Of a stretch of 64,000 nucleotides of DNA, positions 19,653 to 41,677 are shown in pieces. This DNA comes from a virus, in the IMG/VR virus record IMGVR_UViG_3300045919_000302, positions 1 to 64,000 of that record; one strand, written 5' to 3'. The translations under genes and the position numbers were made by a program. Below the pieces are notes generated by a model. That model was not told where the DNA came from and made no database searches. It was given only the letters and a program-made list of their open reading frames with translations. Every line of letters starts with the position of its first letter. The stretch's first letter is position 1.

Positions 19653-21284
19653 CTACATCAAAGCTTCGATCTGATCCTGGGTAGCTCCTGGAGTCAGATC
19701 TGCAATTTCCCCAATGACCCCTTCGACTCCGGTGGAGCGGCGCTTTTCTGTGCCGGTCTTCTTCACCTGATCTTCGACGAGGTTGGTCGTTTTGACCCTT
19801 TCAAACCTTCTTCTCATGAGATTGTAATCTTCGTTTACGACAGGAGCAACGGCAAAACGCTTTACGATCGAATCGATCTCATTACGTTCTGTTTTGCCTT
19901 CGCAGAGTTTACGAATCTTCGCGGCGTTCGGATTGTCGCGAATGCACTCCTCGACGTAGAGTCGCATGCCCAAGCTCTTACTTGTTTCGACAGATTCCCT
20001 AAGGGCCTGTTCGAGCTTGTGCGTACGATCTTCGGCCGCCTTGATACGAGACTCCATACGAGCTTCGATCCGCTTGCGATCCATCTCGGCCTGCTTCTTC
20101 TTGGCCTTTCCAGCGGCGACCTTCTTCTTGGCTTCGGTGAGAGCTGCTTCGACCTGATCGACATTCTCGAACTTCTTGGCAGAGACGTACGAAAGAACTT
20201 CTTCACGGTCTTCACCAAGCTTCGCGAGCGAACGCTCGTAATGAAGCGTGGCGGCCAAGCGGTTGGCGACCAATCCAATCTCGTCAATCTTGGAAACGAG
20301 GCCCTTGTTCTCTTCCTGGAGCTGGGCGATCTGCGTGTCTCGAACCTTGAGAGATTCGTCGAGTTCAGCCGGGCTCGCGGCGACGATGGGAATGAGGACC
20401 TTCTTGATGTCTTCGAGCGCGATGTGCGCGGCAGCGAAGGTCGGATCCGCAAGGAGTTCAGCCTTGATGGACTCGCGAAGCTTCTGCTTCTCTTCTTCGA
20501 GGTTCGCAGCGGCGGGAGCGGCTTCTTCCTTCACGTTGGCTTCCGCGTTGGCTTCTGCGGCCGGTGTCTCGGTGACAGCAGGAGCCTCTTCCTTCTTGGG
20601 CTCTTCGACAGCAGCTTCTGGGGCCTTCACTTCCTCGGGCTTCTGAATCTCGGGAACTTCGTTCGATTCAGATTTCAATTCAACTGCCTTCGCGGTCTTG
20701 TCTTCCATTTGAGCATCCTTTTCTTTTTTCTCGTTCTCTTTGAGAACGGATTCGGGCTCGATCCAGCGAACCTCGGTGGTGAACTTAGGGTACGACGTGA
20801 GCACGGCCGGATCCGCTACGAAGTCGTGAGTCATATAGGCGTAGTCTTCCTGGACCACTTCCATGCCGCCTTCGCCCATGGCCGTTGATCCCATGCCGCG
20901 AGAAGATACGCCGACAGCTCCGCCGGCCTCCAGGATCGAGCGCAGCTGGTTGCCGTGCTCATTCAGGAGGATCTTGGCTTCGCCCAGGATGACCCCGTCG
21001 TCCGTCATACGGAGACCGGTCATGAGGTGAGACACGCGCTTGAGTGACGTCTTCCCGTCCGCCGGATGGTCCAGCTCGCCCATGACCTTGCCTGCTGCCA
21101 GGGACTCATAAATCTTCTGGATCTCGCGCTCCCAGAGTTTACGAGGATACATACGACGATTCTGCGTCGGGATGTCCGCACGCCCGAACTCGCCGCGAGC
21201 AACCAAGAAACGCCCCTGAGGCTCGTTACTTTCAGTCAGCTGGAGACGGAGCGCACTGCCGAAATCAATCAGAAGCTTTGACAT
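19653..21284 (-). CDS. Prohead protease fused to scaffold
   Basis: A 543-aa protein. Residues 1-180 form a T4 gp21-like serine protease: the ELDHPADGK block carries the likely catalytic His and GAVGVSSRGMGS the likely Ser. The rest is a charged, Ala/Glu-rich linker and long coiled coils (AKKKQAEMDRKRIEARMESR), as expected for a scaffold. In T4 these are separate genes 21 and 22; here they are one. The protease would cut capsid and internal proteins during maturation, including the tagged ones. It ends in TAG. Confidence 0.88.
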   Translation of the reverse strand: MSKLLIDFGSALRLQLTESNEPQGRFLVARGEFGRADIPTQNRRMYPRKLWEREIQKIYESLAAGKVMGELDHPADGKTSLKRVSHLMTGLRMTDDGVILGEAKILLNEHGNQLRSILEAGGAVGVSSRGMGSTAMGEGGMEVVQEDYAYMTHDFVADPAVLTSYPKFTTEVRWIEPESVLKENEKKEKDAQMEDKTAKAVELKSESNEVPEIQKPEEVKAPEAAVEEPKKEEAPAVTETPAAEANAEANVKEEAAPAAANLEEEKQKLRESIKAELLADPTFAAAHIALEDIKKVLIPIVAASPAELDESLKVRDTQIAQLQEENKGLVSKIDEIGLVANRLAATLHYERSLAKLGEDREEVLSYVSAKKFENVDQVEAALTEAKKKVAAGKAKKKQAEMDRKRIEARMESRIKAAEDRTHKLEQALRESVETSKSLGMRLYVEECIRDNPNAAKIRKLCEGKTERNEIDSIVKRFAVAPVVNEDYNLMRRRFERVKTTNLVEDQVKKTGTEKRRSTGVEGVIGEIADLTPGATQDQIEALM

Positions 21285-21458: not shown

Positions 21459-24305
21459 TCAGTTGTGGAAGACCATGACTCCGTCGTCGGAGTCCACGAA
21501 GGAAACGGATCCATTCATCTCCGCATCGCGAGCATAGGCTTCGTAGTCGATCGAGAAGAGATTGAGCTTCATGATCTCTTCGATGCCGTAGCCCAGCTCA
21601 TCCATGAAATAACCGACTGCGTCCTTTTGGAGCTGCTCCTGAATATCACTGGAGTACCGATCCCTGAGTTCTTCGCGAGCATCGTCAATGACCTTTTGAA
21701 CCGAGTCGGCCCCATCCGTCAGAGTGAGCATCCGATCCTTAATCTCTTGAACCCTGCTTTTGTCTTCAGGGTCCTCTTCGTCGAGACCGTCCAGCTCATC
21801 TTGAAGTTGAGCCAGCTCCTCTTCAGCGGCTTCTGCCGCCTCAAGTTCTTCCTCCTTGTCGGCATCGGAGATGACCTCGCTATCTTTCATGTCTCCCACG
21901 CGACGATCAGCTTCTTCCGAGGCGATCAAACGCATGTCGGTTTCGGACATCGTCAGATAGTTCGCCGCATTGTCTTTGCTCAGTCCGCCCGTCTCTTCGA
22001 GGAAGTCAGCAGCCCAGTCTTCCTTGGACTTGGCCTGACCCATGTAAGCGTCTTTCGCCTGGTCGATCGTGGCTTTGCTGTCGTTCATCAGATCGATGTA
22101 GGCTTCAAGTATCTTGCGATCTTCCTCGTCAAGATTGAGCCAGTCCCAGACCTTCTCGTCGATGCTGGACTCGCTGTAGTACCGTTCCGGGAATCCCTCG
22201 TAGCCCTGGAACATCGGTTCCGGATCTTCTTCATCCTTGTGAAGCTCTTTGCAAGCTTCGAGGAACTCATCCTTGTCGGCGTAGTCTTCAAGATTGAGCC
22301 ACGCGCCCTTGATGCTGCCGTCGTTGTATTTGGCGTAGGTGCCGACGTAAACAGCCGGGCCAGAAGGGGCCTTGGCTTCGGTCTTCACCGACTCCTTGAC
22401 CGGCTCTTCGGTGCCTTTGCCACAATTCGGGCAGACGCCCACGTGCGGATCCGCGACGGTCGTTTCATCGTCCTTGATGCGGATCGGCTCGCCACAGTGG
22501 GGGCAGTTGTAACCGTCGGATGACTCAACCTTCTCCTCGCCATTCTTCAGCAAGGTCTTGCCCATGACCAACTCGTTGAAGCTGCCCAGGCCCATCTTGA
22601 CCTTGGTGTCTCCACCGCTCAATACCACTTCTCCGCCATCCATGTGGACGTGAAGCTTCTGGCCCACCTTCCACTCGGGCTGATCCGGCACCGGAGCGAG
22701 AACCGAATACACGGCCACATCGCGGGCCTCAGGGAGGGTGTAGCCGTACTTCTTCCCGTTGAACTCGACGGAAAGGGACTCGCCCACATCTCTGCGAACG
22801 TCGCCCTCCTTGTTGTAAGTCTTCAGGCACATCGAGTCGTCGCAAACGTGATCATCGCCCGACTTGTGAGAGGTGCTCTTTCCGCAGACGACGCACTCCC
22901 CGGTGACAAGCTCATTCTCTGCCATTCCCTTTACGGCGATCTCTGCCTTCTCGGAATGAGAGTCGTTGTATTTCTTAACGGCATCGGCAAGAGATGCAGT
23001 CTTAGGCATCTCAAGAGCCTTCATGAATTCAGCACCACCCATGCGCTGAGTTACTTTCCCATCCTTGTCTTTAACAACAACGCAAACAGGATCCTTAGCT
23101 TCAACCACCGACTCTTTGCCTTCGTCCGCAAGTTTGTCGTTCAGCGCGTCCACGAGTTCATCGCGATCCACGACGAACATCCAGGTATCATAGGAGGCAT
23201 TGCCGTAGGCGTAGTTGGACTTGCCATCCCAGTAAGCTTCGTTGAGGTCCTTCGTAACTTTCGCCTTGTCCTCTTCGGAGAGGCCAGCGACAAGTGCCTT
23301 GAAGATATCTTCCACTTCCTCGCCGTTCACGATCCCGGAATTGCCGTCGAGCTGAGTCTCAACCTCTCCGATCTGACCAGATCCACCGACCGCGTTCATC
23401 GGATAGAACACCCCAGACGCCTCGGGTTTCGCCAGACTGCTCAGGATCGCAGTGATGTCGTCCTTCGAGAGCCCGGCCTTGAGAGCGTCCTCTACCGGAC
23501 CCCATAGCTCGTTGTTGGTCATGTTGATCGCGAGGAGCGCATCCGTCGTGATGGTTTGACCGAGAGCGTCCAGGTAGTCCTGGCCGGAGTCCTCGTGCTC
23601 GGTTTCATATTCAGTATTGGACTTCACATTCTCATCAATCCAGGCCGCCAGCGCTTTCATCTGACTTTCCTTATCAGAGAAGCTGATCTCGCCCTGGGAC
23701 TCCTTGATGGGCTTGCTGCGCTTCTTGACGGATTCGTCTTTCGATCCTTCGCCGCCCTTCACGTATACAGCGACATGATAATAGTGTTCAGAGTCGTTCA
23801 TCGAGTGACCCGCGTCTTCGATTTCCTTCTTCACGACTTCGCTGACCTGGAGACCGTCTTCTCCAATTGCCTGTAGGATTTCATTCGCAAGGTCTTCAGT
23901 GTTGCCGCCACAAGCGGAGTAGGTCACTTCTTCTTCGATGGCGTCTTCAGAGACTGAGTCGCGCTTGACGGCTCCGCCAACAATCGAAGAAGGCAAAAGA
24001 TCGGCTTCGCCGTCCACCTTGGCACTCAGAACCTCTTTGCCGGTGACAACCAGCGTAACGTCCAGAGAGGTGACAACCTGATGATCGTTGTCGGCCTTGT
24101 CGGCGTCAGCTTCCAGTTCAGTCGAGATCTCATAGCCCTGTTGGGCGAGCATCTCGATCGCGTCATCCACAGCTTCTTTCTGGGTCATGCCGATGCCCAC
24201 GGAAACGTCGTCCCACTTCGAGTGAGAGGTCCCGCGACCCTGGAAGTACTGGGAGTGTTCCATGCCGATGTCTTCGATTTCAAATTCAACGATCTTTTTG
24301 CTCAT
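21459..24305 (-). CDS. Giant head-module protein with embedded ArdA anti-restriction domain
   Basis: A 948-aa, very acidic protein with AGGAG before the ATG. Residues ~648-772 match ArdA: VYVGTYAKYNDGSIKGAWL, the DKDEFLEACKELHKDEEDPE block and SIDEKVWDWLNLDEEDR. ArdA mimics B-DNA and inhibits type I restriction enzymes. The first ~70 residues (EDIGMEHSQYFQGRGTSHS) also look like a small domain found alone on mobile elements. Two zinc clusters occur near residues 468 and 600, and an acidic coiled coil near 850. The gene lies between the portal and protease, where T4-like phages encode head-core proteins, so it may be packed in the capsid and ejected with DNA. Confidence 0.75.
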   Translation of the reverse strand: MSKKIVEFEIEDIGMEHSQYFQGRGTSHSKWDDVSVGIGMTQKEAVDDAIEMLAQQGYEISTELEADADKADNDHQVVTSLDVTLVVTGKEVLSAKVDGEADLLPSSIVGGAVKRDSVSEDAIEEEVTYSACGGNTEDLANEILQAIGEDGLQVSEVVKKEIEDAGHSMNDSEHYYHVAVYVKGGEGSKDESVKKRSKPIKESQGEISFSDKESQMKALAAWIDENVKSNTEYETEHEDSGQDYLDALGQTITTDALLAINMTNNELWGPVEDALKAGLSKDDITAILSSLAKPEASGVFYPMNAVGGSGQIGEVETQLDGNSGIVNGEEVEDIFKALVAGLSEEDKAKVTKDLNEAYWDGKSNYAYGNASYDTWMFVVDRDELVDALNDKLADEGKESVVEAKDPVCVVVKDKDGKVTQRMGGAEFMKALEMPKTASLADAVKKYNDSHSEKAEIAVKGMAENELVTGECVVCGKSTSHKSGDDHVCDDSMCLKTYNKEGDVRRDVGESLSVEFNGKKYGYTLPEARDVAVYSVLAPVPDQPEWKVGQKLHVHMDGGEVVLSGGDTKVKMGLGSFNELVMGKTLLKNGEEKVESSDGYNCPHCGEPIRIKDDETTVADPHVGVCPNCGKGTEEPVKESVKTEAKAPSGPAVYVGTYAKYNDGSIKGAWLNLEDYADKDEFLEACKELHKDEEDPEPMFQGYEGFPERYYSESSIDEKVWDWLNLDEEDRKILEAYIDLMNDSKATIDQAKDAYMGQAKSKEDWAADFLEETGGLSKDNAANYLTMSETDMRLIASEEADRRVGDMKDSEVISDADKEEELEAAEAAEEELAQLQDELDGLDEEDPEDKSRVQEIKDRMLTLTDGADSVQKVIDDAREELRDRYSSDIQEQLQKDAVGYFMDELGYGIEEIMKLNLFSIDYEAYARDAEMNGSVSFVDSDDGVMVFHN

Positions 24306-24316
24306 GGCCCTGCTCC

Positions 24317-27300
24317 TTATTCCTGTTCCGGTTGGTCGTCGAGAATGGCGTCAACGGCCTTCTTCACTTCAGTTGCAAAATCCGACTCGTCGAGCGTAGC
24401 GACCAGCTGGTCGAACGTGTTGCCGGCCTGGTCGTAGGCGTAGTCCTCGACGAAGTCGTCACTCTTGAACGGAGAGACGTCGTCCAGCAACCAGAAGGCC
24501 CAGTTCCAGCTTGATCCGGCTTCCTGGATGCCGTCATAGATGTTCCGGTCATAGAGAGCGGCCGGCTCAAGGTCTCTCGACACTCCGCCGCTTTCGATAT
24601 GGATGTAAGCGGCCATCGCCTCGGATCCGGTGTAGGAATCTAATCCGCTGATGTCCGCTTCCACTGTAAAATGGTCAGACAGCTTTCCAGCCTTGGCTCC
24701 TTCCTGGTCGATCACTTCTTTCACGAAAGAAACGATTCCAGCCCTCGCGCTTTCCATGTTCTTGTCGGCGTACTCACGCGAAGCGAACAACTGGATGGTA
24801 TTACGCAGGTCTTTAATCACCTCTGGCTTGAGGCGGAACGCCTTCTGGACACCGAGTTCGGAATCAGCCTCTTCAGGGCTTACCATTTCGATATCACCCG
24901 AGTAGCCGTACTTCTTAAGGGCCGCTTCGAGTTTAGGGGTCAGCTCGTGCATATCTCCCAGATCATCTCCGGAGGACTCAGTGGTCTGCTTTAAAATCTT
25001 CTTGGCAGAATCGGTGTCGCCTGAGCGGACGAACTTACCGGAAAGGCTCTTGCCCATCGCGGCTTTCTTCTCCTTGGTCATGGACTTACCAGGGTGCGCC
25101 TGAGCAGGAGCCTGGACAGACTCCTCACTTGGGAGAAGGGCTTTCAGTTTATCCACGGAGAGCGGCTCGTCATTCATGTCCCAAAGCTTGCCGTTCCAAC
25201 TGACTTTCCCGACCTGCTTATCCCCAGACATGATCTTGCTGAGAAAATTACCGCCGCCCAAATTATACTTCTGAGCGTACTTCTTGACCTCGTCTCCCAG
25301 CTTGCCCACGTTGCTGGACGTGATCTGAACGCTTTCAGAATCGGATCCAGGAAGGGGCTTATTCGGGTCCTGACCGAAGTCCGGATTGCCAACGTTGGTC
25401 ATCACTAAAACAAGGCTTCCGGAATTCTCTCCGGATTCACTCATGCCCGAGCCCATGAGCTTGATGCCCTTCTCGAAGTCCTTGGCGGTCTCTTTGCTTC
25501 CGGAGTCCTTGAGATCCGGAATCAGAACCTCTTTGAGATAGTTGATGAACTCTTCCCTAGAGAAGTCGTCAGCAGACGAAGCGCCCTCAATGAACTTCAC
25601 GAGGGTCTCAAAGTCCTTCGCCGTCTCAAACCGCTCCATCTCTTCCAGATCCGGGATGAGCGTGCCCTTGAGGTAGCTGACGAAAGATGCCTTGCCGTCT
25701 TTCTTCTTGGCCTCATGCATATCGTCGTGATCTTCACGGCCGGCGATCTGGCACTTCGCGCAGAGCTTGTCACCCGGCTCGGCAACGAGGCGTCCGCATT
25801 GAGAACAGTGCTCGCCATCGCCATCAGCGTCGCGCCCATCCAGATTGTCCTGGGCGAAATCCCGGGGATCCCCGCCGGAATAGACGGTACTCTCAATGAT
25901 GATCATTCCCGACTCATCGCCCATGTCGGCGACGTAAGGGTTGATCTCTTTGAACTCCTTGGAGACGTTCGTCAGGATGTCGCCAACTTCCTCTTCGTAG
26001 TCGCCGTCCCAGAAACCAGCCCCGTGACCGTTCCGGGTCAGCCAGAAGTCGTGGCCCAGCTGTTCAAGGTCAGCAATGCCACCTTCGCCACGGCGACACT
26101 CCAGGTTTCCGATGTCGTAGCCGGCCTTCTCAAGCGCGGCCTGGGCCTTGTCGTAGAACTCATCACAGTCCTTCTCGGCCTGAGTCACGGAGTCAGCCGA
26201 GATATCGGCGATGGAATAGTTCCAGTCCATGGGCTCGCCGCCTTCGGGTGTGGACTCGTCGGTAGACGACCAGAGCGCCGTTTCCAGGTACTGGGAGACC
26301 ATAGGCGAGAGCTTCTTCTGAGCTTCGGTCATGTCCAGATCCCGCTTAACGCCGTCCGCGTTGTCGCTGACCACGCTCACGAGCTGGTCGAGGGTGCCCT
26401 TGAAAGGCTTGCCGCCTTCCTTCTCCCAGGCCGCGAGGATCCGCTCTGCGACCTTCTTCACATCCAGGGTGGTCTTCACCTTGTGGAGCATGGCGTAGAG
26501 ATTTTCTTTGCCGACTGCAAAACTGAACAGATCGTCTGCGTCTGCCGTGTCCTTCATTCTGGCGTCTTCGAGTTTGGGCTTAACCCCGGAACTGGACCCG
26601 GAGGCGAAGATGTGATCGCGGATGCTCGCGGCATCGCCCTCTTTCGCGCCGGGGAAGTCGGCGAGCATCTCGTGGAATGCGTCCTTCCAGTTCTCAAAAA
26701 TCCCGTCCGCGTTGACGGCCCAGTCCACAAAGGCTTCCTTGAAGCGTTCGACTTCGGTGTATTCCTTGAGTCCAGTAATGGAGGCGATCGTGCCGGAGGA
26801 GAGGCTACGAATCTCCTGCTCCAGCTTGCCGCTCATGTCTGACTCGCCCATTGCCTGCTCGACGGCCTTGTCCAGGCTTTCGACCATGATGGAAAGAATC
26901 TGGTGGGCTTCTTCTTCCTCGACCTTACCCTCGCGAATCTGCTGAGCCATGTAGAGCGCGTCGTCCTTGACCTTGCGGTAGTCGGCGTACTCGGGCTCCT
27001 TCTGTTCTGCGACGGGCTTCTTGACGCCGAGGATCTCGGCGAAGTCCTCGTCGAGCGCGAGACTGGAAGACGAGAAATCGGGAAGCTCGGGGAGATCTTT
27101 GAACCCGCATTCGCTGACGGGCTTCTCGACCGGCACCTTCTTGCTTTCGGTGGTAACCTTTTTCTCACCCAGAATGGTGATCAAACTGTCCACCAGCTTG
27201 GCCGCGTTCTCAAAGCCCCGAATCAGATTCATCTTCTCGCCCATCTTACCCTCCGTCAGATTCGCCAGGTACCCAATCGAGGAAAGATGAATCCTTCTCC

Positions 27301-27544
27301 GACTGCCCGGCTTGATGTGCATCCGCTTGCGGATCTTCGCACGCCTCTTGGCCATTCGTTTGTACCGCGAGGTCTTCCTGCGGCGTTTCGCCATTCTCTT
27401 GAGTCTTGCCTTACGCTTACGATAGTACCGCTTCCGCTTCATGCGGACACGAGCCGGTGTACGCTTAGACCGCGTAACGCGAACTTCGTACAACCAACTC
27501 TCAATCAGCAGATTCAGAATAGATGGCTCGACCACTTTTTGCAC
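24317..27544 (-). CDS. Giant internal head protein with basic arm and repeated small domains
   Basis: A 1075-aa protein starting with GTG at 27544 (AAAAGG just upstream). Residues ~22-80 are a strongly basic arm (RMKRKRYYRKRKARLKRMAK), suited to DNA binding. The rest is acidic. A pair of tandem repeats lies near residues 621 and 668 (LKGTLIPDLEEMERFETAKD and LKEVLIPDLKDSGSKETAKD). Near residue 495, GHDFWLTRNGHGAGFWDGD matches a domain common in mobile-element anti-restriction regions. A zinc ribbon lies near residue 585 (CSQCG...CAKC). Likely packed with the DNA and possibly ejected. Confidence 0.62.
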   Translation of the reverse strand: MQKVVEPSILNLLIESWLYEVRVTRSKRTPARVRMKRKRYYRKRKARLKRMAKRRRKTSRYKRMAKRRAKIRKRMHIKPGSRRRIHLSSIGYLANLTEGKMGEKMNLIRGFENAAKLVDSLITILGEKKVTTESKKVPVEKPVSECGFKDLPELPDFSSSSLALDEDFAEILGVKKPVAEQKEPEYADYRKVKDDALYMAQQIREGKVEEEEAHQILSIMVESLDKAVEQAMGESDMSGKLEQEIRSLSSGTIASITGLKEYTEVERFKEAFVDWAVNADGIFENWKDAFHEMLADFPGAKEGDAASIRDHIFASGSSSGVKPKLEDARMKDTADADDLFSFAVGKENLYAMLHKVKTTLDVKKVAERILAAWEKEGGKPFKGTLDQLVSVVSDNADGVKRDLDMTEAQKKLSPMVSQYLETALWSSTDESTPEGGEPMDWNYSIADISADSVTQAEKDCDEFYDKAQAALEKAGYDIGNLECRRGEGGIADLEQLGHDFWLTRNGHGAGFWDGDYEEEVGDILTNVSKEFKEINPYVADMGDESGMIIIESTVYSGGDPRDFAQDNLDGRDADGDGEHCSQCGRLVAEPGDKLCAKCQIAGREDHDDMHEAKKKDGKASFVSYLKGTLIPDLEEMERFETAKDFETLVKFIEGASSADDFSREEFINYLKEVLIPDLKDSGSKETAKDFEKGIKLMGSGMSESGENSGSLVLVMTNVGNPDFGQDPNKPLPGSDSESVQITSSNVGKLGDEVKKYAQKYNLGGGNFLSKIMSGDKQVGKVSWNGKLWDMNDEPLSVDKLKALLPSEESVQAPAQAHPGKSMTKEKKAAMGKSLSGKFVRSGDTDSAKKILKQTTESSGDDLGDMHELTPKLEAALKKYGYSGDIEMVSPEEADSELGVQKAFRLKPEVIKDLRNTIQLFASREYADKNMESARAGIVSFVKEVIDQEGAKAGKLSDHFTVEADISGLDSYTGSEAMAAYIHIESGGVSRDLEPAALYDRNIYDGIQEAGSSWNWAFWLLDDVSPFKSDDFVEDYAYDQAGNTFDQLVATLDESDFATEVKKAVDAILDDQPEQE

Positions 27545-32538: not shown

Positions 32539-32838
32539 TTAAACCTGATCCAGATCGCCGTTCATCTCAGCGCCCATTTCTGGCTCGGGAAGCTCTTCGG
32601 CTTCCGCGCCTTCGTCGCCGTCCTTCTCTTCCGCTTCAGGGTTGAGAGCTTCCTTGACTTCGGCGAGTTTTGCGTCGAGAGCAGCTTCGCCCTCGCCTTC
32701 TTCGCCTTCGTGCCGGCCTTCTACTGCCATGACGAGGTCACCGAGAAGCTTCTCGTGGTCGATCTTTTTCTTCTTCTTGCCTTCAGAAACTTCTTCCGGA
32801 AGACCAAAACCATTCACCGATTCACTGATCTGTTTCAT
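32539..32838 (-). CDS. Tagged acidic protein
   Basis: A 99-aa protein with AAGGAG before the ATG. It starts MKQISESVNGFGLPEEVSE, matching the common tag, followed by a Lys run and then an almost wholly acidic body (EEGEGEAALDAKLAEVKE). Such small acidic tagged proteins resemble T4 internal proteins or core components. It is the first gene before terminase in the transcript. Confidence 0.7.
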   Translation of the reverse strand: MKQISESVNGFGLPEEVSEGKKKKKIDHEKLLGDLVMAVEGRHEGEEGEGEAALDAKLAEVKEALNPEAEEKDGDEGAEAEELPEPEMGAEMNGDLDQV

Positions 32839-32847
32839 ACTGTCTCC

Positions 32848-33957
32848 TTACGTGGTTAACTCGGGCGCAACCTCTGCGACCATGTCACTTCCCAAGATCT
32901 GAATAACCTTTTTTACGATCCCTTCATCATTGGTGTGCAGATTGACATGATCAGCTTCACCAGATGGTCCCACCTGGATAAACGCTTCCGGTTCAAGCTT
33001 TAAAACGGCGTCTCGCATCGCCTGCGTTATCTCACTATCTGGATTGAGGAAAATGGTATGCATCGGCTCGTCATCTACACGCTTCATCTTCAGTGCGTGG
33101 ATGTGCTCGGATGGGACGTCAGGAAGACTGAACGGGATGTCTCCAGTCTTTTTGTTCCCACGGCGGAAGCGATTCTCGTTCTCCCCATGTTCAGCATCGG
33201 TCGCGTCCCAGTAGGTGTAACTGTCGTCGTGACCATGTTGAAGCGCGATCTTGTAGAACGGGGAACTCGGCGAAAGACGCTTCGAAATGTAGAAGTAGAA
33301 GTCGTTGCTCTTCGAGTAATCCTCAAAGTAATCTTGCTCCGGCTCGGTGATGCACCACTTCGTCCCAGAGCCGTAGAGCATTGCGGCCTCTTTGGTAGTG
33401 ATGTGGTAAACCTTCCAGTACTTGTCCTCGGCGACGAGTTTGGCCCCCGATGCCTTCTTCTCTTTCTTCTCCTGGCTCTTCGACTTGCTGGCCTTCGTCT
33501 CATCGACGAAAGCCTTGAACTCGGCCCAGGTCTTCCACTTGTCGATGTCCTTCTTGGTGGCATCCTGGATCTTCGGCTTCAAAAGCTTGAAGTCGGTGAT
33601 GTAGTCGGTGATCTCGTCATCAGGAGCCCCTTGATCCTTGAAGCGCTTGATAGAGGTTTTGAAGTCCTCTTCGAGACTTTCATTCTTGGGCCATTGATGT
33701 GTTTTCTCGTATGCCCCAAAGATCGTGTTGCATCTGGTCTGAGCACGCTCTTCGGATTCAAGCGGGCCATCGCGATAAACCTGGCGCTCATCGTCGAATA
33801 TCTGGGCAATCCAGCCATTGGAATACAGACCGACCATGGCCGTGATGTAGTCCGTGAAATTCCGGTACGACCCACGGATGCACGAATCCCTCGCCTTCCA
33901 CCCATCGTCAGACTCGAATACCGGCAGGCCGAACCTATCTACGCCCTCGGTGAACAT
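32848..33957 (-). CDS. Tagged protein with phage 'GSGTKWCI' domain
   Basis: 369 aa, starting MFTEGVDRFGLPVFESDD, a good tag match with a likely cut after FE. The middle has WKVYHITTKEAAMLYGSGTKW followed by CITEPEQDYFEDYSK, a pattern seen in uncharacterised proteins of large T4-like phages. The flanking parts are charged helices. The fold is unknown; the tag suggests packaging in the head. It begins with a TAATG overlap at the end of the next tagged gene upstream. Confidence 0.65.
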   Translation of the reverse strand: MFTEGVDRFGLPVFESDDGWKARDSCIRGSYRNFTDYITAMVGLYSNGWIAQIFDDERQVYRDGPLESEERAQTRCNTIFGAYEKTHQWPKNESLEEDFKTSIKRFKDQGAPDDEITDYITDFKLLKPKIQDATKKDIDKWKTWAEFKAFVDETKASKSKSQEKKEKKASGAKLVAEDKYWKVYHITTKEAAMLYGSGTKWCITEPEQDYFEDYSKSNDFYFYISKRLSPSSPFYKIALQHGHDDSYTYWDATDAEHGENENRFRRGNKKTGDIPFSLPDVPSEHIHALKMKRVDDEPMHTIFLNPDSEITQAMRDAVLKLEPEAFIQVGPSGEADHVNLHTNDEGIVKKVIQILGSDMVAEVAPELTT

Positions 33958-34973
33958 TAGTCGCGGTCCCGATGGAGGCTGATCGAAGCGCCGCCCCAGC
34001 CGCCACTCACGCTGTAGTTGAAGTAATTCCCATCAGCCGCCTTCACGAGGTAGATCGGCGAGTAGATGTGGTGAGCCTTGTCTTCGTGGAAGCCGGCGAG
34101 CCTGAACTCTTTGAAGTTCTTGATCACCTCGGCGTCCTGCACGTTGAACTGGGCATCGCGGACCATGCCGGTGTCGCGCAGCTCGCCCTTCGCGTTGATG
34201 ACGTTCTTTTTGAGCCAGGCGATCCCTTGTTGGGATTGCTCGGGCGATATGTCGATGAGCTTGCCTTCTTCGAACATCGCGAGGATCTCGTGAAGGATGT
34301 ATTTCATCTCCTCGTCCATGTCCTGCTTCCAACCCCGGGCCAGATCCGACAGGCGGTGAGCGACCCCGAGGATCTCCTGCTTCGTCCACATCGGCTTGGT
34401 CTTCAGGGCCTCGTACTTCTTGAGCGTAGCGCGGGCGGTGCCTTCCTGGATCTGCACGGACTCGTCCACCTCCCCGACTTCGGCATCGTAATGATTCTGA
34501 GCAGACGTCAGGGCCTTTTCGAAGGTCACCTGAGGGTCCTTATCGCACCAATGCATAAGGTCCGCGAGAAGGTCCACTACGGCCTCTTCACCCTCGCTCC
34601 CTGTGTGCGCAGAGAATGCCTTGAGGGCGACATCAGCGGCGGCAACGCTGTCTTCCTTGGATTCGACCACCGACTCCACTGCCTTCTTCTGACCGGAATG
34701 AGGATCCTTCGGGTCGAGGTAGCGAGCGTCTCGCGAGCCCTTGTCCGGAATGATCTCGTATTCCTGACGATCATTCTCGTACTGGTCGCCGAGCTTCTCA
34801 GCGAGAAACGCCTCAGCATCTTCAGCTGAATCGAACTTCTGGCCATCAAACATGATCGTGTTGGTCCAGTCAACGATGTGCCACTTCTCCTTGGCTTCGA
34901 TCTGGGTGCTCTCTGTCAGCTCGCGCTCGATCGGGAACCCAAACTTGTCTTCGACCATCATCTTCTTCGCCAT
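33957..34973 (-). CDS. Tagged protein of unknown function
   Basis: 338 aa with GGAG before the ATG. It starts MAKKMMVEDKFGFPIERELTE, a divergent tag (F-G-F-P). The body is charged. The C-terminal ~70 residues look like a small folded domain (RLAGFHEDKAHHIYSPIYLV; FNYSVSGGWGGASISLHRD). No family recognised. It lies between the tubulin-like gene and another tagged gene. Confidence 0.62.
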   Translation of the reverse strand: MAKKMMVEDKFGFPIERELTESTQIEAKEKWHIVDWTNTIMFDGQKFDSAEDAEAFLAEKLGDQYENDRQEYEIIPDKGSRDARYLDPKDPHSGQKKAVESVVESKEDSVAAADVALKAFSAHTGSEGEEAVVDLLADLMHWCDKDPQVTFEKALTSAQNHYDAEVGEVDESVQIQEGTARATLKKYEALKTKPMWTKQEILGVAHRLSDLARGWKQDMDEEMKYILHEILAMFEEGKLIDISPEQSQQGIAWLKKNVINAKGELRDTGMVRDAQFNVQDAEVIKNFKEFRLAGFHEDKAHHIYSPIYLVKAADGNYFNYSVSGGWGGASISLHRDRD

Positions 34974-34983
34974 TTGATCTCCG

Positions 34984-36114
34984 TTATCCGATTGGGTACG
35001 CCGACCCTGATTTTGCTGCCATCTCTTGAAGCCGGGCCGTCGGTCGGCCCAGTCCGCTCAAGATCGTGAAGAGGTAGATTGTGCTTTGGGATCCAGCCTC
35101 ATAAACTCCGCGATGGAGCTTTGTCTCCGGGCCCTGGGCCATCAGTCGGTTAAGAGAGCCAAAAGCGCCCTCAAGAGCCTCCTGCGTAACCGAAGCAAGC
35201 CCCTCGCCGTTACTGACAAGAAGCCCTGCCCCCACTTTCGCTTTCGAGAGATCGAGTCCTTCAACGAGAAGCCCCTTCTTCACGTTCTCACGAACCGCGT
35301 CGGCGACATCCGTCGGCTTCTCGATTCGCTCAAGCTTTGTCCTTCCAAAGCTAAGAATGCCAGATTCGAGGACGGTCCGATAGTCTTTTGGATCGCAGAC
35401 CACGTGACACTCTTTGCTGTCGATCGCACACAATTCGTTGAAGCTGCTGAACAGGGCGGCGATGTTTTTATTTGCGGTCTTCCATACGTCCACCACGCTG
35501 GCGGTGCCGTAGAGCTGCATCACTCGGGCGTTGTCCACGATGACCAGGGGCGAGAGATGGCCCTTCTCGGCCATGCCCAGGAGGGGCAGAAGGGTCTCCA
35601 GGGCGTTCCGCTGCACAGCCGAGGATTCATCCTTGGTCGGGAGGGTGACGATCACGCCGACGCGCTTCTCGGGATTCTGGACGCCGATGGAAGCCATGTA
35701 CCCCTTGGCGATCTTCACGAGCGGAAGGGCCGCTCCGGATCCAGTGCCGCCGCCGGCACCGACACAGATCAAGATCTGCTCGACGTCTTTTTTGAAGGAG
35801 GACTGGATCAGACGATGAATCTCTTCGCTCTCGGCCTCGACCGCTGCACGGCCCACGGCCGGATCCTTGCCGGCCCCACCATCGCCCCTCAGGACATGAC
35901 GATTCGCCTCGGGTACGGAGAGCCGCTGCATGTCGCGGGTCGTGGTGTTCACGATGGCCACGCGCCGGTAGCCCAGACCGTAGAAGGTGTCCGCAAGATT
36001 ACCGCCGCCCTGGCCAGCGCCAAGGAAGGCCATCTTCACGGCAGTCTTCTTTTCTTCTGTGACGGATTCAACAGTGGCTAAAACTTCGTCATCAATCTGT
36101 GAAAGGTCAAGCAC
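34984..36114 (-). CDS. Tubulin/FtsZ-like GTPase
   Basis: 376 aa from a GTG with AAGGAG six bases upstream; an open frame further upstream lacks a site. GTP-binding signatures are FLGAGQGGGNLADTFYGLG near residue 30 and the tubulin signature GAGGGTGSGAALPLV near residue 115. The length agrees with phage tubulins (PhuZ/TubZ type) but the sequence could also be another FtsZ-like group. Phage tubulins position the replicating DNA or nucleus-like body in jumbo-phage infection. The sequence does not show which subclass it is, and its C-terminal tail lacks an obvious acidic knuckle. Confidence 0.85.
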   Translation of the reverse strand: MLDLSQIDDEVLATVESVTEEKKTAVKMAFLGAGQGGGNLADTFYGLGYRRVAIVNTTTRDMQRLSVPEANRHVLRGDGGAGKDPAVGRAAVEAESEEIHRLIQSSFKKDVEQILICVGAGGGTGSGAALPLVKIAKGYMASIGVQNPEKRVGVIVTLPTKDESSAVQRNALETLLPLLGMAEKGHLSPLVIVDNARVMQLYGTASVVDVWKTANKNIAALFSSFNELCAIDSKECHVVCDPKDYRTVLESGILSFGRTKLERIEKPTDVADAVRENVKKGLLVEGLDLSKAKVGAGLLVSNGEGLASVTQEALEGAFGSLNRLMAQGPETKLHRGVYEAGSQSTIYLFTILSGLGRPTARLQEMAAKSGSAYPIG

Positions 36115-36263
36115 AACGATCTCCTTTTTCCCTAACAAATTAAACTCATCTTCAGTCAGCAGAGTGTAAACCATAATTGCGGAAGCCACCATCCTGGCAT
36201 TCGCAAGCAACCCAAGCAACAACCCTTTGACTCTTTGTCATGACAAAAGGTATAAGTCAGGCT

Positions 36264-37100
36264 ATGCCAAAAGCATTGGATTTCACCGCAAAGCGATTCG
36301 GTCGCCTTACTGCCATACATTTCGTGGGCCGCAGTCCTTCTGGCCGAGTGTGGCTCCTCTTATGCGACTGCGGCGCAACGATAGAAAGGCCGGTATGGGC
36401 TTTCAAGAAACCAAGAGTCAAAAACGTTTCCTGTGGATGCAGGGGACTTCCATTCCCCACTAACGGTCAAAGATTTGGGAGGTTGATATCGACAGGCCCA
36501 GGATCGAATGGGAAATGGTCTTTTCGCTGCGATTGCGGAAAGGAAATCCAAAGGCCGCGCTATGCGGTTCAAAACGGCAAAACTAAAAGTTGCGGATGCT
36601 TGTGGACCGAGACAGCAAAGGAAAAACAAAAGAAATACTGCCATTCGCACGGCTACAGCAAGACCGCCATCTACAGCAGATGGAAAAACATGCTGTCCCG
36701 CTGTGAGGATCCAAACCACATCAATTTTAACGACTACGGCGGAAGAGGCATAAAAGTTTGCGAACGGTGGCATAACTTCGAGAATTTTCTGGCAGATATG
36801 GGAAACCCGTTCACCGACAACAAGAGTAAGGCTCTTCAAATCGATCGCATAAACAACAACGGAAACTACGAACCTGGAAATTGTCGATGGGTAACACCCA
36901 GAGAAAACTGCAACAATAGAAGAAACAACGTACTGATCACATGGAACAACAGAACCCTTACTCTTGTTCAGTGGTCCAGGGAGACCGGCATTCCCAGAGA
37001 CACACTAAGTCACAGAATAAAGAGCAGCCGTCTCAGCATCGAGGAGATTCTCACTGTTCCCGTAGGGGCGCACCCTTGGAGGAGGTCCCGTCACCCATAA
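36264..37100 (+). CDS. HNH-type homing endonuclease (free-standing)
   Basis: 278 aa from the ATG at 36264 (AGG upstream); a start at 36240 is also possible. Two copies of a zinc-like motif occur in the N-terminal half (LCDCGATIERP, then CDCGKEIQRP, each followed by CGC). The C-terminal half has the HNH-like block found in phage endonucleases: GGRGIKVCERWHNFENFLAD, then IDRINNNGNYEPGNCRWVTP. The C-terminal end resembles a DNA-binding helix-turn-helix. It is on the opposite strand to its neighbours, typical of a self-spreading gene. A 28-bp repeat and a terminator follow. Confidence 0.82.
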   Translation: MPKALDFTAKRFGRLTAIHFVGRSPSGRVWLLLCDCGATIERPVWAFKKPRVKNVSCGCRGLPFPTNGQRFGRLISTGPGSNGKWSFRCDCGKEIQRPRYAVQNGKTKSCGCLWTETAKEKQKKYCHSHGYSKTAIYSRWKNMLSRCEDPNHINFNDYGGRGIKVCERWHNFENFLADMGNPFTDNKSKALQIDRINNNGNYEPGNCRWVTPRENCNNRRNNVLITWNNRTLTLVQWSRETGIPRDTLSHRIKSSRLSIEEILTVPVGAHPWRRSRHP

Positions 37101-37116
37101 CGTCCTGCTGTGCCCC

Positions 37117-37144
37117 TACGGGGGCCATAATCCTGGCGGGCGTA
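37117..37144. repeat. 28-bp palindromic repeat, copy 5
   Basis: Half sites TACGGGGGCCA and CTGGCGGGCGTA around TAATC. It lies just after the HNH gene and just before a terminator. A second inverted repeat (CCCGTAGGGGC at 37059-37069 and GCCCCTACGGG at 37112-37122) overlaps it. Confidence 0.75.
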
Positions 37145-37156
37145 AGTTACGATAAC

Positions 37157-37196
37157 AAAAAAGCCCCACCCACCCGCTAAGGTGAGAGGGGCTTTT
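37157..37196. terminator. Bidirectional terminator between convergent genes
   Basis: AAAAGCCCC and GGGGCTTTT form a 9-bp stem with inner CACC/GGTG pairs, flanked by A-runs and T-runs on both sides. It serves the plus-strand HNH gene and the minus-strand 48-aa gene. Confidence 0.85.
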
Positions 37197-37217
37197 ATAT
37201 CCTCCTGGCGGGGATCT

Positions 37218-37364
37218 TCACCAGAAAGAAGGTGGTGGATTGCTCGATTGAGGCACTGGATCCTCGTCAGCGCATGGCCGGCACGGGATTAGGTACAGGC
37301 CCGTTGAGTCGCGCTTCTTCTTTGTGCCATTGCAGTCAGGACATTTTTCATCATTATTTTCCAT
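37218..37364 (-). CDS. Small zinc-knuckle protein
   Basis: 48 aa from an ATG with GGGGGATAAA upstream. It has two CxxC pairs (CPDCNGTKKKRD and CRPCADED) as in DnaJ-type zinc clusters, then a Pro/Ser tail. A TTGACA box lies about 55 bases upstream. Function unknown. Confidence 0.55.
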   Translation of the reverse strand: MENNDEKCPDCNGTKKKRDSTGLYLIPCRPCADEDPVPQSSNPPPSFW

Positions 37365-37395
37365 TTTATCCCCCTCGTATTTTTGAGATGGCCAC

Positions 37396-37423
37396 CCAGT
37401 ACCACGGCATAACAAGTTGTCAA
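37396..37423 (-). promoter_or_regulatory. Possible sigma70-like promoter
   Basis: Minus strand TTGACA (37423-37418), a 16-base spacer and TACTGG (37401-37396) lie just upstream of the 48-aa zinc protein. The -35 box is perfect, the -10 box poor. Only suggestive. Confidence 0.35.
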
Positions 37424-37549
37424 GCGACGCGGATGCGCCTCCGTTGCAGAGGAAAGATATGCGATTAATGGTGGGAAATTTGAGGCGGGAAGGCTGGCAG
37501 ATCTTCAGACTGGCACGACAAACGCGCACTTGCAAGTTATCATGACTCC

Positions 37550-38074
37550 ATGAAGCTCTCTGGATCTGTCGATTGCTTTGGACTCCCGGCTGTCGAGAAA
37601 GAGGCGCAGGAGATCTCCGAGGCTGAACTGAAGAAGGCCAACTGCCCCGAGTGTGGCCCTTCCTATTTCAAGAAGACATACGCCTTCGACCCAGATATGC
37701 GCCTCATCTGGCAATGCCAGAACTGCGGCCACCAGAAGGAAGTGGGGAAGCGGGCCCCTTCACCGAAGGCTCAGCAAGCCGCGCTCGACAAGATCCGGAA
37801 GGCCATCGAGACCTCCGGAACTCCTGACCATCCGACCCGGATCGTTGAGTGGACCGTCGAGAACGACGAAGGCGGATTCATCAACTTGAAAGTCTGGGCG
37901 ATGCAGGGCGAAGACAGCAACATGCTGGGCCTCGTGTCCAAGCGCCTGCTCGGGATCCGCATCAGCCCGGTCGGGGGCGTCACCGTCTATTCAGACTCAC
38001 AGGCAAAGACGAAGTCCCAGCTGAAGGATGTCGAGAGACGCCTTCGAGATGGAACCAGGACTCACTGGTGGTGA
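37550..38074 (+). CDS. Tagged zinc-ribbon protein, plus strand
   Basis: 174 aa. It starts MKLSGSVDCFGLPAVEKEAQ, a clear tag on the opposite strand to most other tagged genes. A zinc ribbon follows (CPECGPSYFKKTYAF, then CQNCGHQKEVGK). The C-terminal part, rich in beta strands (FINLKVWAMQGEDSNMLGLV), is unknown. No good ribosome-binding site is seen. It is convergent with the 127-aa gene, ending where that gene ends. Confidence 0.62.
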   Translation: MKLSGSVDCFGLPAVEKEAQEISEAELKKANCPECGPSYFKKTYAFDPDMRLIWQCQNCGHQKEVGKRAPSPKAQQAALDKIRKAIETSGTPDHPTRIVEWTVENDEGGFINLKVWAMQGEDSNMLGLVSKRLLGIRISPVGGVTVYSDSQAKTKSQLKDVERRLRDGTRTHWW

Positions 38075-38458
38075 TCAGACCTTTTCGAGGGAAGTCTTCC
38101 AAGCGTCAGTCTCGTCTTGAAACCAAGTCCCGCCGTGATCCCAGAAATCCATCAAGCGAGCCTCGTTCTTGACGATCCACGATCTGATGTGAGCGAGATC
38201 TTTTGCGGATACCGACTTCGTGAATTGGCGATCCTTGTGGGCCTCCACGACCTCGGGACTCTTTGAGATCGTCATGGAGAAGAATTCACTCAACCCCGGG
38301 CGATCGGCGTAGACCTTGAGCGTGGGGATTTCTGAATGCGAAGTCCGGAGCGTCTCTTCCTTACTTCTGACGTGGAGCGAGTAGTGAAGGCCCGTTTCCT
38401 GACTGCGGAAATTAGCCATCTCAACAATCACTTCGGCGCTACGACTCAGATCGGTCAT
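38075..38458 (-). CDS. Unknown 127-aa protein
   Basis: Beta-rich first half (HYSLHVRSKEETLRTSHSE) and helical second half (AKDLAHIRSWIVKNEARLMDF). AAGG lies upstream of the ATG. No family recognised. It is convergent with the tagged plus-strand gene. Confidence 0.55.
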   Translation of the reverse strand: MTDLSRSAEVIVEMANFRSQETGLHYSLHVRSKEETLRTSHSEIPTLKVYADRPGLSEFFSMTISKSPEVVEAHKDRQFTKSVSAKDLAHIRSWIVKNEARLMDFWDHGGTWFQDETDAWKTSLEKV

Positions 38459-38501
38459 GACGTTACTCTACCTTAAATGACGCGAACTGTCAAACCTGAA
38501 G

Positions 38502-41114
38502 TCAGGCTTCGTCGTCCAGGCTGCGCCACTTGACGCCCTCGGGATCCTTCTCAGACTTCACGATCTTCGCCCACTCAGGATTGCTTTCGACGTTCGACAG
38601 AATGGTATCGATGTCCGTCACCTGAGAAGGGAACCAATCCTTGTCCGTCTTGACGTAACTGATCGCGAGATCCGGGAAGCGCTCCAGCATGTCCTGGTAC
38701 ATTTCGGAGGCTGAGCTGCCTTCATAGAAGCCCTTTCTCGCCTTGGGTAGAACATCCCGCTCGAACATCTCCAGGGTCGGAGGGCAGACGATCCGCTGGA
38801 TGTTGCCGATCTTCTGGTTGCCACGGCCGTTCTTCTTCCAGGCGACGTAGATCTCGAAGCTCTTCTCTTTCTTTACCTCGGTGATCGGAGTTGCATAGCG
38901 CTCGCGAAGGACCGACTCGACCAAGCGACCACCCCTTGGGGCTGATTCAGCTTGGCGCTTGGGTGCGTACATGTCGAAGATCCGGACCCTGGTCGAATCA
39001 ATAGGACTACCTGGAGCGTTAACGAAGTCGAGGGCTTCATCATAAGTTGAAAAGGTCTTTGCGCGGTAGAGGTGCTCGCTCCAGCCGCTCTTCGTGTGCT
39101 CGGTGTAATACCTGGGCACCGCCCTGAATTTCGTCTTGATAGCCCAGCATTCCTTCGGGATCAAGGACTCGACCACTGCGTTTTCAAGCTTCTCCAGGAA
39201 GCGGTCCATGCCGTAGTGAAGCGGCGACGGGGCGTCGGAAAGTGTAGCCCAAGTGTAATCCTGGGTCTCGGAGTTCAACCTGGGCTTGAACTCATGATCC
39301 ACCGGAATCACGTAGAAGTGGAACTTGAATCCGCCCTCTTCGTACTCGTCCACGAGCCGTGGGTTCATGGGGCCTGTGTAGCCCGCCTCTTCCGCGACCT
39401 CGCGCTTCAGTGCTTCGAGCGGAGTCTCGCCTTCATCGATCTTTCCACCGAAGGTGCTCCAGGTATTCGGCTCCGGGCAGTCAGGCCCCCGGTGCGCAAA
39501 GAGATACCGACCGGTGTCCTTGGCGTAGAAGAGTCCGCCGGCCCCGGCGAGCCTCCAGGTGATTCCGTCCGGATCCGTGTAGGCGGCCTCCTTGAGGCCG
39601 ACCTTATTGAATTTGGAATCAAACTTCTCTTTTGAGATCCCGAACTCGCTGATCCAGTCCCCATCCACAAAGGCGCAGTCGGCGTTGACTCCGGATCGGA
39701 TCGCCCGGTTCAGGCGGTGCTGCCCATCCAGAACGTAGTTGGATCCGCCCACAACCAGAACGATGCTGGCCTCCAGATCTGCCTCAGGCTTGTCTTTGAG
39801 TTCCAGGCTCGACTCCTGCTGATGGATCTTTTGGAACGTCGCGGCCTCTTCGGGAGAGACCGACCGGAGCTTGGCATTCTTGACTGCGGCATCGAACTTT
39901 TTGGCAAAGTCTGGCCACTGATCGTCATCAATCATGGAGAAGAATTGGCCGATCGCTGACTCGTGGTCCTCGGGATGGATCTCAAGACGTTCGCCAAAGG
40001 GACGATTGGGTTGCGACCATAGGGCAGCTGCGTCGTCCGACTGTGCGTCACTTTTGCGGAGCTTCCTGTTCTTTAGTTTTTCCGCATATTGATACATCGC
40101 CGTAGCAAGACCTTTACGTCGATGTTCCGGATCCACAGAGATTCCCCTCGAATAGAATCCGTGGGCAGACTTTCTGTTTGCAATGTGGGCGTGGGCAACT
40201 TCTTCACCATCCTTGGTCACACTGATTCTCAGATCATCATCGCCAGTGTCGATAGCGCAATCCTTGCAACCAGCATCTGGCGCTTCCTGATGAGTTATCC
40301 TGTACCCTTTGTTTTCCAGATCCTCTAATCCCTCAGGGATCCACGCCTTCTGCTTCTTCAGCATGTCGAAAGCACCTTTTACACTGGTGTCGTATTTTTG
40401 ATCATCCGATTCGAAGAACTTACCCGCAGGGTAGCGTCCCGGCTTCTTGAAGACCTTGTCGATGATCTTCTTGAAGACCCCATTACATCGTCTGATGTCG
40501 AAGAGAAATTCTCCCTTTTCATCCCACACTCCGTACTTACCCCGAGCGGCGGTGATCGGAATCACTAAACTCACGTCATCAATATCAAATACGACCTGAT
40601 GTTTGTCACCATCGGAGATATGCTCAGCCTCTACAGCACGATCAACTTGGAGTAGGACGGCGTTTTTCCCGTAGTCGTCGTGCCCGCCAGGGCTGGCGTT
40701 ATCCAATGTAAAAGCGAACACCAGATTCCCTGGATTAGTTCGCTCATGAAACGTCAAACCAAGATTCTCTGGCGCTGCACCTTCAACGGTCCCACTCACA
40801 AACGCCTTTGCGAAAGCAATCGGATCCTTACTGGTATGACGAACAAGCCACGTGCCTCGCGGAAGCCATTTTGGCTTGCGAAAAAAAATAGTAGTGCTCG
40901 GCTCATTCCCTTCCGCTTCGCGGATAAAATCCGAAATCCAATCTTCGCGTTCATGTGGATCTCCGTCTTCAATCTCTTCAGGGACGGAGTCTTCGGCTTC
41001 TTTTCGGGTCTGCTCATACCACTGGTCATAAGATCCGGCCATGTCGTAGAACACATCCAGCTCATCCGACTCGACAAGTGGCATTCCAAAATGATCCAAG
41101 GACTCAGAGAGCAT
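38502..41114 (-). CDS. Tagged multidomain protein: GNAT, ParB-like and Nudix domains
   Basis: 870 aa from the ATG at 41114 (a GTG one codon earlier is possible). It starts MLSESLDHFGMPLVESDE, the tag with a likely cut after VE. Later parts are an unknown beta-rich domain (~75-190; GKNAVLLQVDRAVEAEH), a GNAT acetyltransferase signature (~330; EHRRKGLATAMYQYA), a ParB-like nuclease/NTPase motif (~459; VLDGQHRLNRAIRSG), a Nudix box (~553-575; GGKIDEGETPLEALKREVAE) and an uncharacterised C-terminal ~200 residues. The tag suggests packaging and ejection like T4 Alt. The substrates are unknown. Confidence 0.75.
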   Translation of the reverse strand: MLSESLDHFGMPLVESDELDVFYDMAGSYDQWYEQTRKEAEDSVPEEIEDGDPHEREDWISDFIREAEGNEPSTTIFFRKPKWLPRGTWLVRHTSKDPIAFAKAFVSGTVEGAAPENLGLTFHERTNPGNLVFAFTLDNASPGGHDDYGKNAVLLQVDRAVEAEHISDGDKHQVVFDIDDVSLVIPITAARGKYGVWDEKGEFLFDIRRCNGVFKKIIDKVFKKPGRYPAGKFFESDDQKYDTSVKGAFDMLKKQKAWIPEGLEDLENKGYRITHQEAPDAGCKDCAIDTGDDDLRISVTKDGEEVAHAHIANRKSAHGFYSRGISVDPEHRRKGLATAMYQYAEKLKNRKLRKSDAQSDDAAALWSQPNRPFGERLEIHPEDHESAIGQFFSMIDDDQWPDFAKKFDAAVKNAKLRSVSPEEAATFQKIHQQESSLELKDKPEADLEASIVLVVGGSNYVLDGQHRLNRAIRSGVNADCAFVDGDWISEFGISKEKFDSKFNKVGLKEAAYTDPDGITWRLAGAGGLFYAKDTGRYLFAHRGPDCPEPNTWSTFGGKIDEGETPLEALKREVAEEAGYTGPMNPRLVDEYEEGGFKFHFYVIPVDHEFKPRLNSETQDYTWATLSDAPSPLHYGMDRFLEKLENAVVESLIPKECWAIKTKFRAVPRYYTEHTKSGWSEHLYRAKTFSTYDEALDFVNAPGSPIDSTRVRIFDMYAPKRQAESAPRGGRLVESVLRERYATPITEVKKEKSFEIYVAWKKNGRGNQKIGNIQRIVCPPTLEMFERDVLPKARKGFYEGSSASEMYQDMLERFPDLAISYVKTDKDWFPSQVTDIDTILSNVESNPEWAKIVKSEKDPEGVKWRSLDDEA

Positions 41115-41677
41115 CACTGGGCCACTCCATCGACCGAAAATGCAGCGGGACTTCCTCCATGCTCCATGTGCTCGGCAAAGGCCATGACCATCTCGCCGTT
41201 CTCCTGGTGGAAGTTTCGGGCCTCCTGATCGGAATAGATCTCTTTCAGATGCGGGGTCGCATACTTCTTCCAGAGGGCCATCCGGTCGTCGAGATTTGAG
41301 AGCTGGGCATCGAGCTTCTCGTTACCAAGCTCGAACCAGAAGAGGCCCTTGTACTCGTGTTTCTTGATGTCCTTGTGGCCGACGATCTTTAGCTCGTGCT
41401 GCTTGAAGAGCATGTTGGAATGCTGGATGCGCTCGTACTCGTCGAAGTTTCCGTGCTCATCGCAACCGACGTAGTGGAACCCGCCGCCGTGGACGCCGGA
41501 ATCAGGGATGTAGAGAATGTGGCCCGAGGTCTTCCCGTCCGTCACGAGGAGGATGTCACCTGGCTTCCCGGTGGACTCGATTTCGTCCTTCCAGCTCCAG
41601 GAGGTCTTTCCGTCCTTCTTGGTTTCAGGGATGGGCATGCCAAAGCGGTCAAGGGATTCAGAAAGCATAGGGCACAT
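41114..41677 (-). CDS. Tagged protein of unknown function
   Basis: 187 aa (MCPMLSESLDRFGMPIPETK), or 184 aa from a second ATG at 41668. The tag is nearly identical to that of the next gene. The body contains GDILLVTDGKTSGHILYIPD and a helical end (NLDDRMALWKKYATPHLKE). It overlaps the multidomain gene (TGATG), so the two are co-translated and probably co-packaged. Confidence 0.65.
   Translation of the reverse strand: MCPMLSESLDRFGMPIPETKKDGKTSWSWKDEIESTGKPGDILLVTDGKTSGHILYIPDSGVHGGGFHYVGCDEHGNFDEYERIQHSNMLFKQHELKIVGHKDIKKHEYKGLFWFELGNEKLDAQLSNLDDRMALWKKYATPHLKEIYSDQEARNFHQENGEMVMAFAEHMEHGGSPAAFSVDGVAQ

Follow-up and report, generated by a model that had tools for sequence, protein, structure and literature searches.

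Why should a series of otherwise unrelated phage proteins begin with the same short peptide? The question is raised by a 64,000-nucleotide stretch of viral DNA (the window; positions 1 to 64,000 of IMG/VR virus record IMGVR_UViG_3300045919_000302, a record of 149,291 bp that we refer to as G000). A preliminary description reported that six proteins encoded here open with variants of E-S-(V/L)-D-x-F-G-(M/L)-P, and proposed an N-terminal capsid-targeting sequence, probably cut by a gp21-like protease, for cargo that is ejected into the host. Here we describe 35 curated copies of this tag on ten related uncultured contigs, in N-terminal, internal and C-terminal locations, with the consensus h-x-E-[S/D]-[V/L]-D-x-[F/W]-G-[L/M/I]-P-h-x-E (h, hydrophobic residue). 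We consider it likely that the tag is a capsid-targeting and maturation signal; targeting together with processing remains the best explanation of the sequences, with two corrections: the tag is not strictly N-terminal, and candidate protease sites flank the core on both sides.

A peptide core between two candidate protease sites

The relatives compared are 12 IMG/VR contigs found via their capsid protein, two of which (G012 and G013, with 41–46% capsid-protein identity) form an outgroup; contig G009/L043, which has no capsid gene, was added via a DNA pattern of the tag, and its placement in the group rests on its tag and on a homologue of the 870-amino acid (aa) protein described below. The 35 copies were picked by hand from the listed matches, and this choice enters the spacing statistics that follow. 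In the 32 copies that are not C-terminal, a glutamate lies exactly three residues after the proline in 21 (P = 9e-17), in line with the x-x-E originally described, from which the copies at 34973 and 32838 deviate; a complete hydrophobic-x-E is present at the exact spacing in 18 (P = 2e-19), and any such triplet at a distance of up to 10 residues in 29. Upstream of the core, a hydrophobic-x-E occurs at fixed spacing in 20 of 34 copies (P = 7e-22), and the core thus has a candidate protease site on each side.

A chance origin of the tag is ruled out by shuffling, leave-one-out scoring and an unbiased comparison of N termini. With a matrix built from 18 copies, the leave-one-out scores are 18–32 for most core copies, and the best score among 20 shuffles of 768 proteins is 20.6; with a matrix of all 35 copies, which is not leave-one-out, scores of at least 13 are reached by 10 of the 216 G000 gene calls versus four of the 4,845 proteins in a shuffled set that covers all contigs. 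When all N termini are compared against each other without supplying the motif, tag pairs rank top in G000 and in G011, duplicate gene calls aside, and there are no tag pairs in the outgroup contig G013.

Conservation of the tag is at the protein level. In comparisons of identical residues between tag copies, the third codon base is identical in 75 of 206, and this use of differing codons for the same residues points to selection on the peptide. The common start could instead reflect an RNA- or DNA-level element, either a translation leader or a 5′ end spread by recombination, with no peptide signal at all; most copies do lie at gene starts, and recombination is frequent among T4-like phages. 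However, the synonymous positions largely differ between copies, the upstream DNA is not common to them, and there are internal and C-terminal copies; moreover, an orthologue in G011 of a tagged 369-aa protein retains the tag and the downstream domain while the approximately 80 residues between them are absent, a replacement immediately beside a conserved tag. Such an element is already disfavoured and we regard it as very improbable; on the codon comparison we reject it, along with recent duplication.

Tagged proteins and portability of the tag

The six starts first described (32838, 33957, 34973, 41114 and 41677 on the minus strand, and 37550 on the plus strand) are all starts of real open reading frames that open with the motif, although at 41677 an ATG at position 41668 is the likelier true start (MLSESLDRFGMP). 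Below, a slash marks a candidate cleavage position. On the minus strand, a 99-aa acidic protein (gene 32539-32838) carries the tag at its N terminus (MKQISESVNGFGLPEEVSE; 32797..32838), and G010 has a tagged 114-aa protein in the matching location, between FtsZ and terminase genes; the 369-aa protein (gene 32848-33957) carries it at 33913..33957 (MFTEGVDRFGLPVFE/S), and a 338-aa protein (gene 33957-34973) has a degenerate version at 34923..34973 (MAKKMMVEDKFGFPIERELTE), which is weak taken singly (its leave-one-out score is only 3.2); a homologue in G011 that is 67% identical carries the tag. A 174-aa cysteine-rich, zinc-ribbon-like protein encoded on the plus strand (gene 37550-38074) has its tag at 37550..37597 (MKLSGSVDCFGLPAVE/K). 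Back on the minus strand, an 870-aa multidomain protein (gene 38502-41114; tag at 41070..41114, MLSESLDHFGMPLVE/S) contains GNAT and NUDIX domains identified with Pfam and, as read by eye, a DGQHR ParB-like motif, and its homologue in G009/L043 is 1325 aa long, with four GNAT stretches and the tag MSLFESVDQFGIPVIE/K; a 184-aa protein (gene 41114-41668; tag at 41624..41668, MLSESLDRFGMPIPE/T) gave no match in family searches.

The weak copy reported at 10747 (MKLDSVVDSWGSP..MEE) is upheld: this divergent tag (10694..10747, minus strand; MKLDSVVDSWGSPLTMEE) begins a 198-aa protein (gene 10151-10747) whose orthologue in G008 is tagged too (MRVGTALNSWGEPIHEE), and a tagged gene occupies the corresponding location at 24288 in G010. 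Several copies were not in the preliminary description. One is internal, at 11890..11934 in a 763-aa protein (gene 11278-13569, minus strand), where it reads MQE/SVDFFGMPVME/E; it is retained within homologues in G003, G005, G008 and G010, and in G006 a tag is present in a neighbouring low-complexity protein. Three more lie outside the window in the same record: two are N-terminal (79557 and 78937), and the third is C-terminal and ends at 84644 (gene 84644-85186), where EESLDRFGIPLHT is directly followed by the stop codon.

When the tags are masked, no two of the G000 bodies match each other by BLAST, as expected from the initial account of unrelated bodies; most of the orthologues detected keep the tag, so that the motif is not missing from the homologous genes of relatives, an outcome set out beforehand as a test. 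The designation as an N-terminal tag holds for most copies but not strictly, since six contigs have internal copies. On three contigs the tag is found at a C terminus: in G006 this is the end of a NUDIX protein, in G002 that of a LigT-like phosphoesterase, and in G000 that of the protein above. The NUDIX proteins of G006 and G008 are 41% identical, and the tag is C-terminal in the first and N-terminal, though degenerate, in the second. The domains of tagged proteins include GNAT, NUDIX, RNase T-like and LigT-like types, and domains of this sort are catalogued in injected 'polyvalent' proteins (PMC5512222).

Within the searches made, we have found the tag only in this clade. No tags are present in the outgroup contigs G012 and G013. 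A strict DNA pattern matched only G008 and L043/G009 across IMG/VR, both then counted as the same group, and two N-terminal patterns gave only isolated matches in unrelated genes outside the group. A tblastn search of cultured phages with one 20-aa consensus yielded nothing, although the power of such a short query is low; a matrix scan of T4 stretches gave no tag match, a scan with an alignment of the 369-aa protein matched G011 alone, a relative sought among genome contigs was not found, and we found no description of the motif in the open-access literature.

Relationship to the phage head

The window contains a T4-type head module. Terminase and portal (the latter assigned from gene order) are followed by two proteins of very large size, one small gene, the S77 protease and the gp23-family capsid protein, an arrangement that matches T4 20-67-68-21-22-23. 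The prohead protease (19653..21284, minus strand), a Peptidase S77 of the T4 gp21 family (PF03420, E=1e-14), confirms the gp21-like protease recognised earlier; its GELDHP and GVSSRGMGS motifs line up with those of T4 gp21, whose H and S motifs are shared by the clade, and it has a long, acidic, scaffold-like C-terminal extension. Its own N terminus reads L-T-E/S, and a hydrophobic-x-E is present at this end in all ten of the aligned clade and outgroup sequences; it is presumably the processing enzyme of the tags. The major capsid protein (18111..19610, minus strand; T4 gp23 family, PF07068, E=2e-66) has a candidate cleavage site at G76-E77, directly before the capsid core and invariant in alignments of the clade. 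As separate observations on these two proteins, the G004 protease (L038:1575-4235) seems to hold an insert, and the G006 capsid protein (L036:8339-9847) terminates in ..KEFAFGLPA, a faint likeness to the tag core that may be due to chance.

The tag might be solely an extended recognition site for the gp21-like protease, with Phe-Gly at P7-P6 included, that marks cuts in precursors and has no role in targeting. The exact spacing of F-G-x-P-h-x-E is what such a site would show, the internal copies would make sense as places to cut, and T4 gp23 has a similar F-G-S-F-L-T-E/A at its known 65-residue propeptide boundary (length from PMC5694885). However, the candidate sites in the capsid protein and protease of the clade lack F-G-x-P, the C-terminal copies have the core with no hydrophobic-x-E after it, and trimming 4–15 residues from many unrelated enzymes leaves their presence in the prohead in need of another reason. 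We therefore think it unlikely that the motif is a protease site and nothing else.

Further correlations with the head come from the two large proteins at the position of the head core, neither of which is tagged. The first, of 948 aa (21459..24305, minus strand), lies between portal and protease at the position of T4 gp67/gp68, and contains an ArdA antirestriction domain at residues 652-785 (PF07275, E=9e-21); the 1392-aa core-position protein of G004 has an ArdA domain too, in a similar arrangement. The second, of 1041 aa (24317..27442, minus strand), has a very basic N terminus and was assigned from gene position and sequence. Domains of tagged proteins recur at this position in relatives. 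Untagged core-position proteins of G003 (2136 aa) and G010 (1705 aa) contain a counterpart of residues 30-95 of the 34973 protein. The 763-aa protein, also tagged, has its residues 184-459 repeated in untagged proteins of the portal-protease interval, one of 1216 aa in G006 and one of 1392 aa in G004; for the G009 tagged protein, residues 806-894 have matches in small protease-adjacent genes of G003 and G007. This suggests two possible routes by which a domain may be carried to the head: fusion with a core protein, or the tag.

An alternative destination is some other partner within the cell, from phage or host, to which the tag would dock so as to position enzymes with no packaging involved. 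The FtsZ/tubulin-like protein is one candidate, as its gene (34984-36174, minus strand) lies inside the tagged cluster and the protein is 55–74% identical beside terminase in three relatives; but neither the flanking hydrophobic-x-E sites nor the recurrence of cargo domains in large head-core-position proteins is explained by such docking, and we regard it as quite improbable.

Comparison with known systems

T4 gp21 cuts at a short Glu-terminated motif (PMC9026906, PMC5694885), and the T4 internal proteins Ip1-3 have in common only a leader at the N terminus, by which their packaging is directed (PMC12373910). Targeting and processing residues of this signal are separable; in IPIII, targeting depends mainly on residues 4 and 7, and processing on 8 and 10 (PMC9026906). 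The tag resembles the T4 capsid-targeting sequence (CTS) of IPI-III and Alt in being a short signal on otherwise unrelated proteins, in ending with a gp21-type hydrophobic-x-E site, and in occurring with an S77 gp21-family protease, a T4-type head and a gp23 capsid protein; as in T4 IPI (MKTFKEF...TITE), there is a Phi-x-E (Phi, hydrophobic) near the start and an h-x-E later. It departs from the CTS in having no evident sequence identity with it (by eye, the T4 IPI N terminus MKTFKEFTST.. is without the tag core), in its conserved S-V-D-x-F-G-L-P core, which is flanked on each side by a candidate site, in its internal and C-terminal locations, and in a cargo that includes enzymes, one of them 870 aa long (1325 aa in a relative). 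The N terminus of T4 gp21 (LIE-TWGQP...MLES) resembles divergent forms of the tag, but homology could not be shown and we do not rely on it.

N-terminal head propeptides of the phiKZ/SPN3US type are cut after x-x-E by gp175/gp245, and gp53 and gp54 of this phage type have identical first 15 residues (PMC5694885); most propeptides there are long, however (>100 residues), and the sharing is between paralogues that are 34% identical overall, not among proteins without relationship. In P1, the first 30 residues of DarB are enough to bring a reporter into the head, and DarB cargo counters restriction; no common consensus was found among the Dar proteins (PMC9024508), whereas here a strong consensus extends across the genome. 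Polyvalent proteins, encoded by phages and conjugative elements (Iyer et al. 2017), are described as multidomain, with mixed activities, and their packaging and injection are predicted (PMC5512222). The tagged 870-aa and 1325-aa proteins similarly hold several disparate domains, and from their tag may be packaged and injected; a term search of PMC5512222 returned no packaging tag for polyvalent proteins, whereas a candidate tag is present here.

A model for tag function

We propose that, as the head assembles, the S-V-D-x-F-G-L-P core would attach the proteins that bear it to the core or scaffold of the prohead, such that they co-assemble into the prohead. Cleavage by the S77 protease after one of the flanking hydrophobic-x-E sites, or after both, would then release the cargo within the head, and on ejection the cargo would leave together with the DNA and act on the host. 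Several of the cargoes are plausibly counter-defence or host-modifying enzymes. The proposal draws on the 35 copies, their fixed-spacing h-x-E sites, the S77 protease and the capsid G-E site, the divergence of codons, the portability of the tag, the recurrence of cargo domains at the core position, the cargo enzyme domains and core-position ArdA, and the precedents of T4 and P1. The sequences themselves show the tag with its flanking sites, its conservation as a peptide, its portability, its restriction to the clade and the recurrence of its cargo domains at the core position; a place in the head, docking, cleavage, ejection and the role of the cargo are inferred, and of these steps targeting has good support.

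Several observations weigh against it. The downstream site is inexact in 14 of 32 copies, and the residue after its glutamate is often E or K, as opposed to the S, D, G, N or A that follows the candidate protease and capsid-protein sites; the residue after the upstream glutamate is usually S or D and is the closer fit, which makes the position of cutting uncertain. Two of the three C-terminal copies are without an upstream hydrophobic-x-E at the fixed spacing, the candidate site of the capsid protein is without F-G-x-P, and a few homologous domains are in untagged proteins away from the core (G000 38075-38458). AlphaFold models of the 369-aa cargo and of the C-terminally tagged NUDIX protein (predicted local distance difference test scores of 47 and 37, respectively) are too poor to use.

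In a bolder form, whose chances we see as about even, the tag would be a position-independent zip code, with its core between two protease sites, that loads an arsenal of unrelated enzymes into the head within one clade; it would be trimmed off N termini, C termini or mid-protein, and domains would enter either by the tag or by fusion into a large head-core protein.

Neighbouring genes

The gene for the terminase large subunit (29398-32517, minus strand; 1039 aa) has an apparent intein-like insert, as read by eye only. Next to the capsid gene, positions 16290-17921 (minus strand) encode a DNA-modification protein of the Mom family, one segment of which resembles an HNH endonuclease. In L003, two adjacent PP-loop proteins with SGG(Q/K)DS motifs are encoded at 81760-82728 and 83149-84096 of G000 (minus strand), the second of which matches a PAPS reductase domain; the scanned part of the first is without a Pfam match. 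The T4 late promoter TATAAATA is absent from the window.

Implications

On our best reading, the tag would work like the T4 internal-protein signal, but with a different sequence and without confinement to the N terminus; it would then be a counterpart of that signal usable at either protein end. If so, the injected effectors of this clade could be listed from sequence alone, with about eleven candidates in this phage, most of them without a known function. This would help to predict injected counter-defence proteins, and the tag could also be used for cargo loading. It would moreover be a candidate answer to how the polyvalent proteins of phages get into the head.

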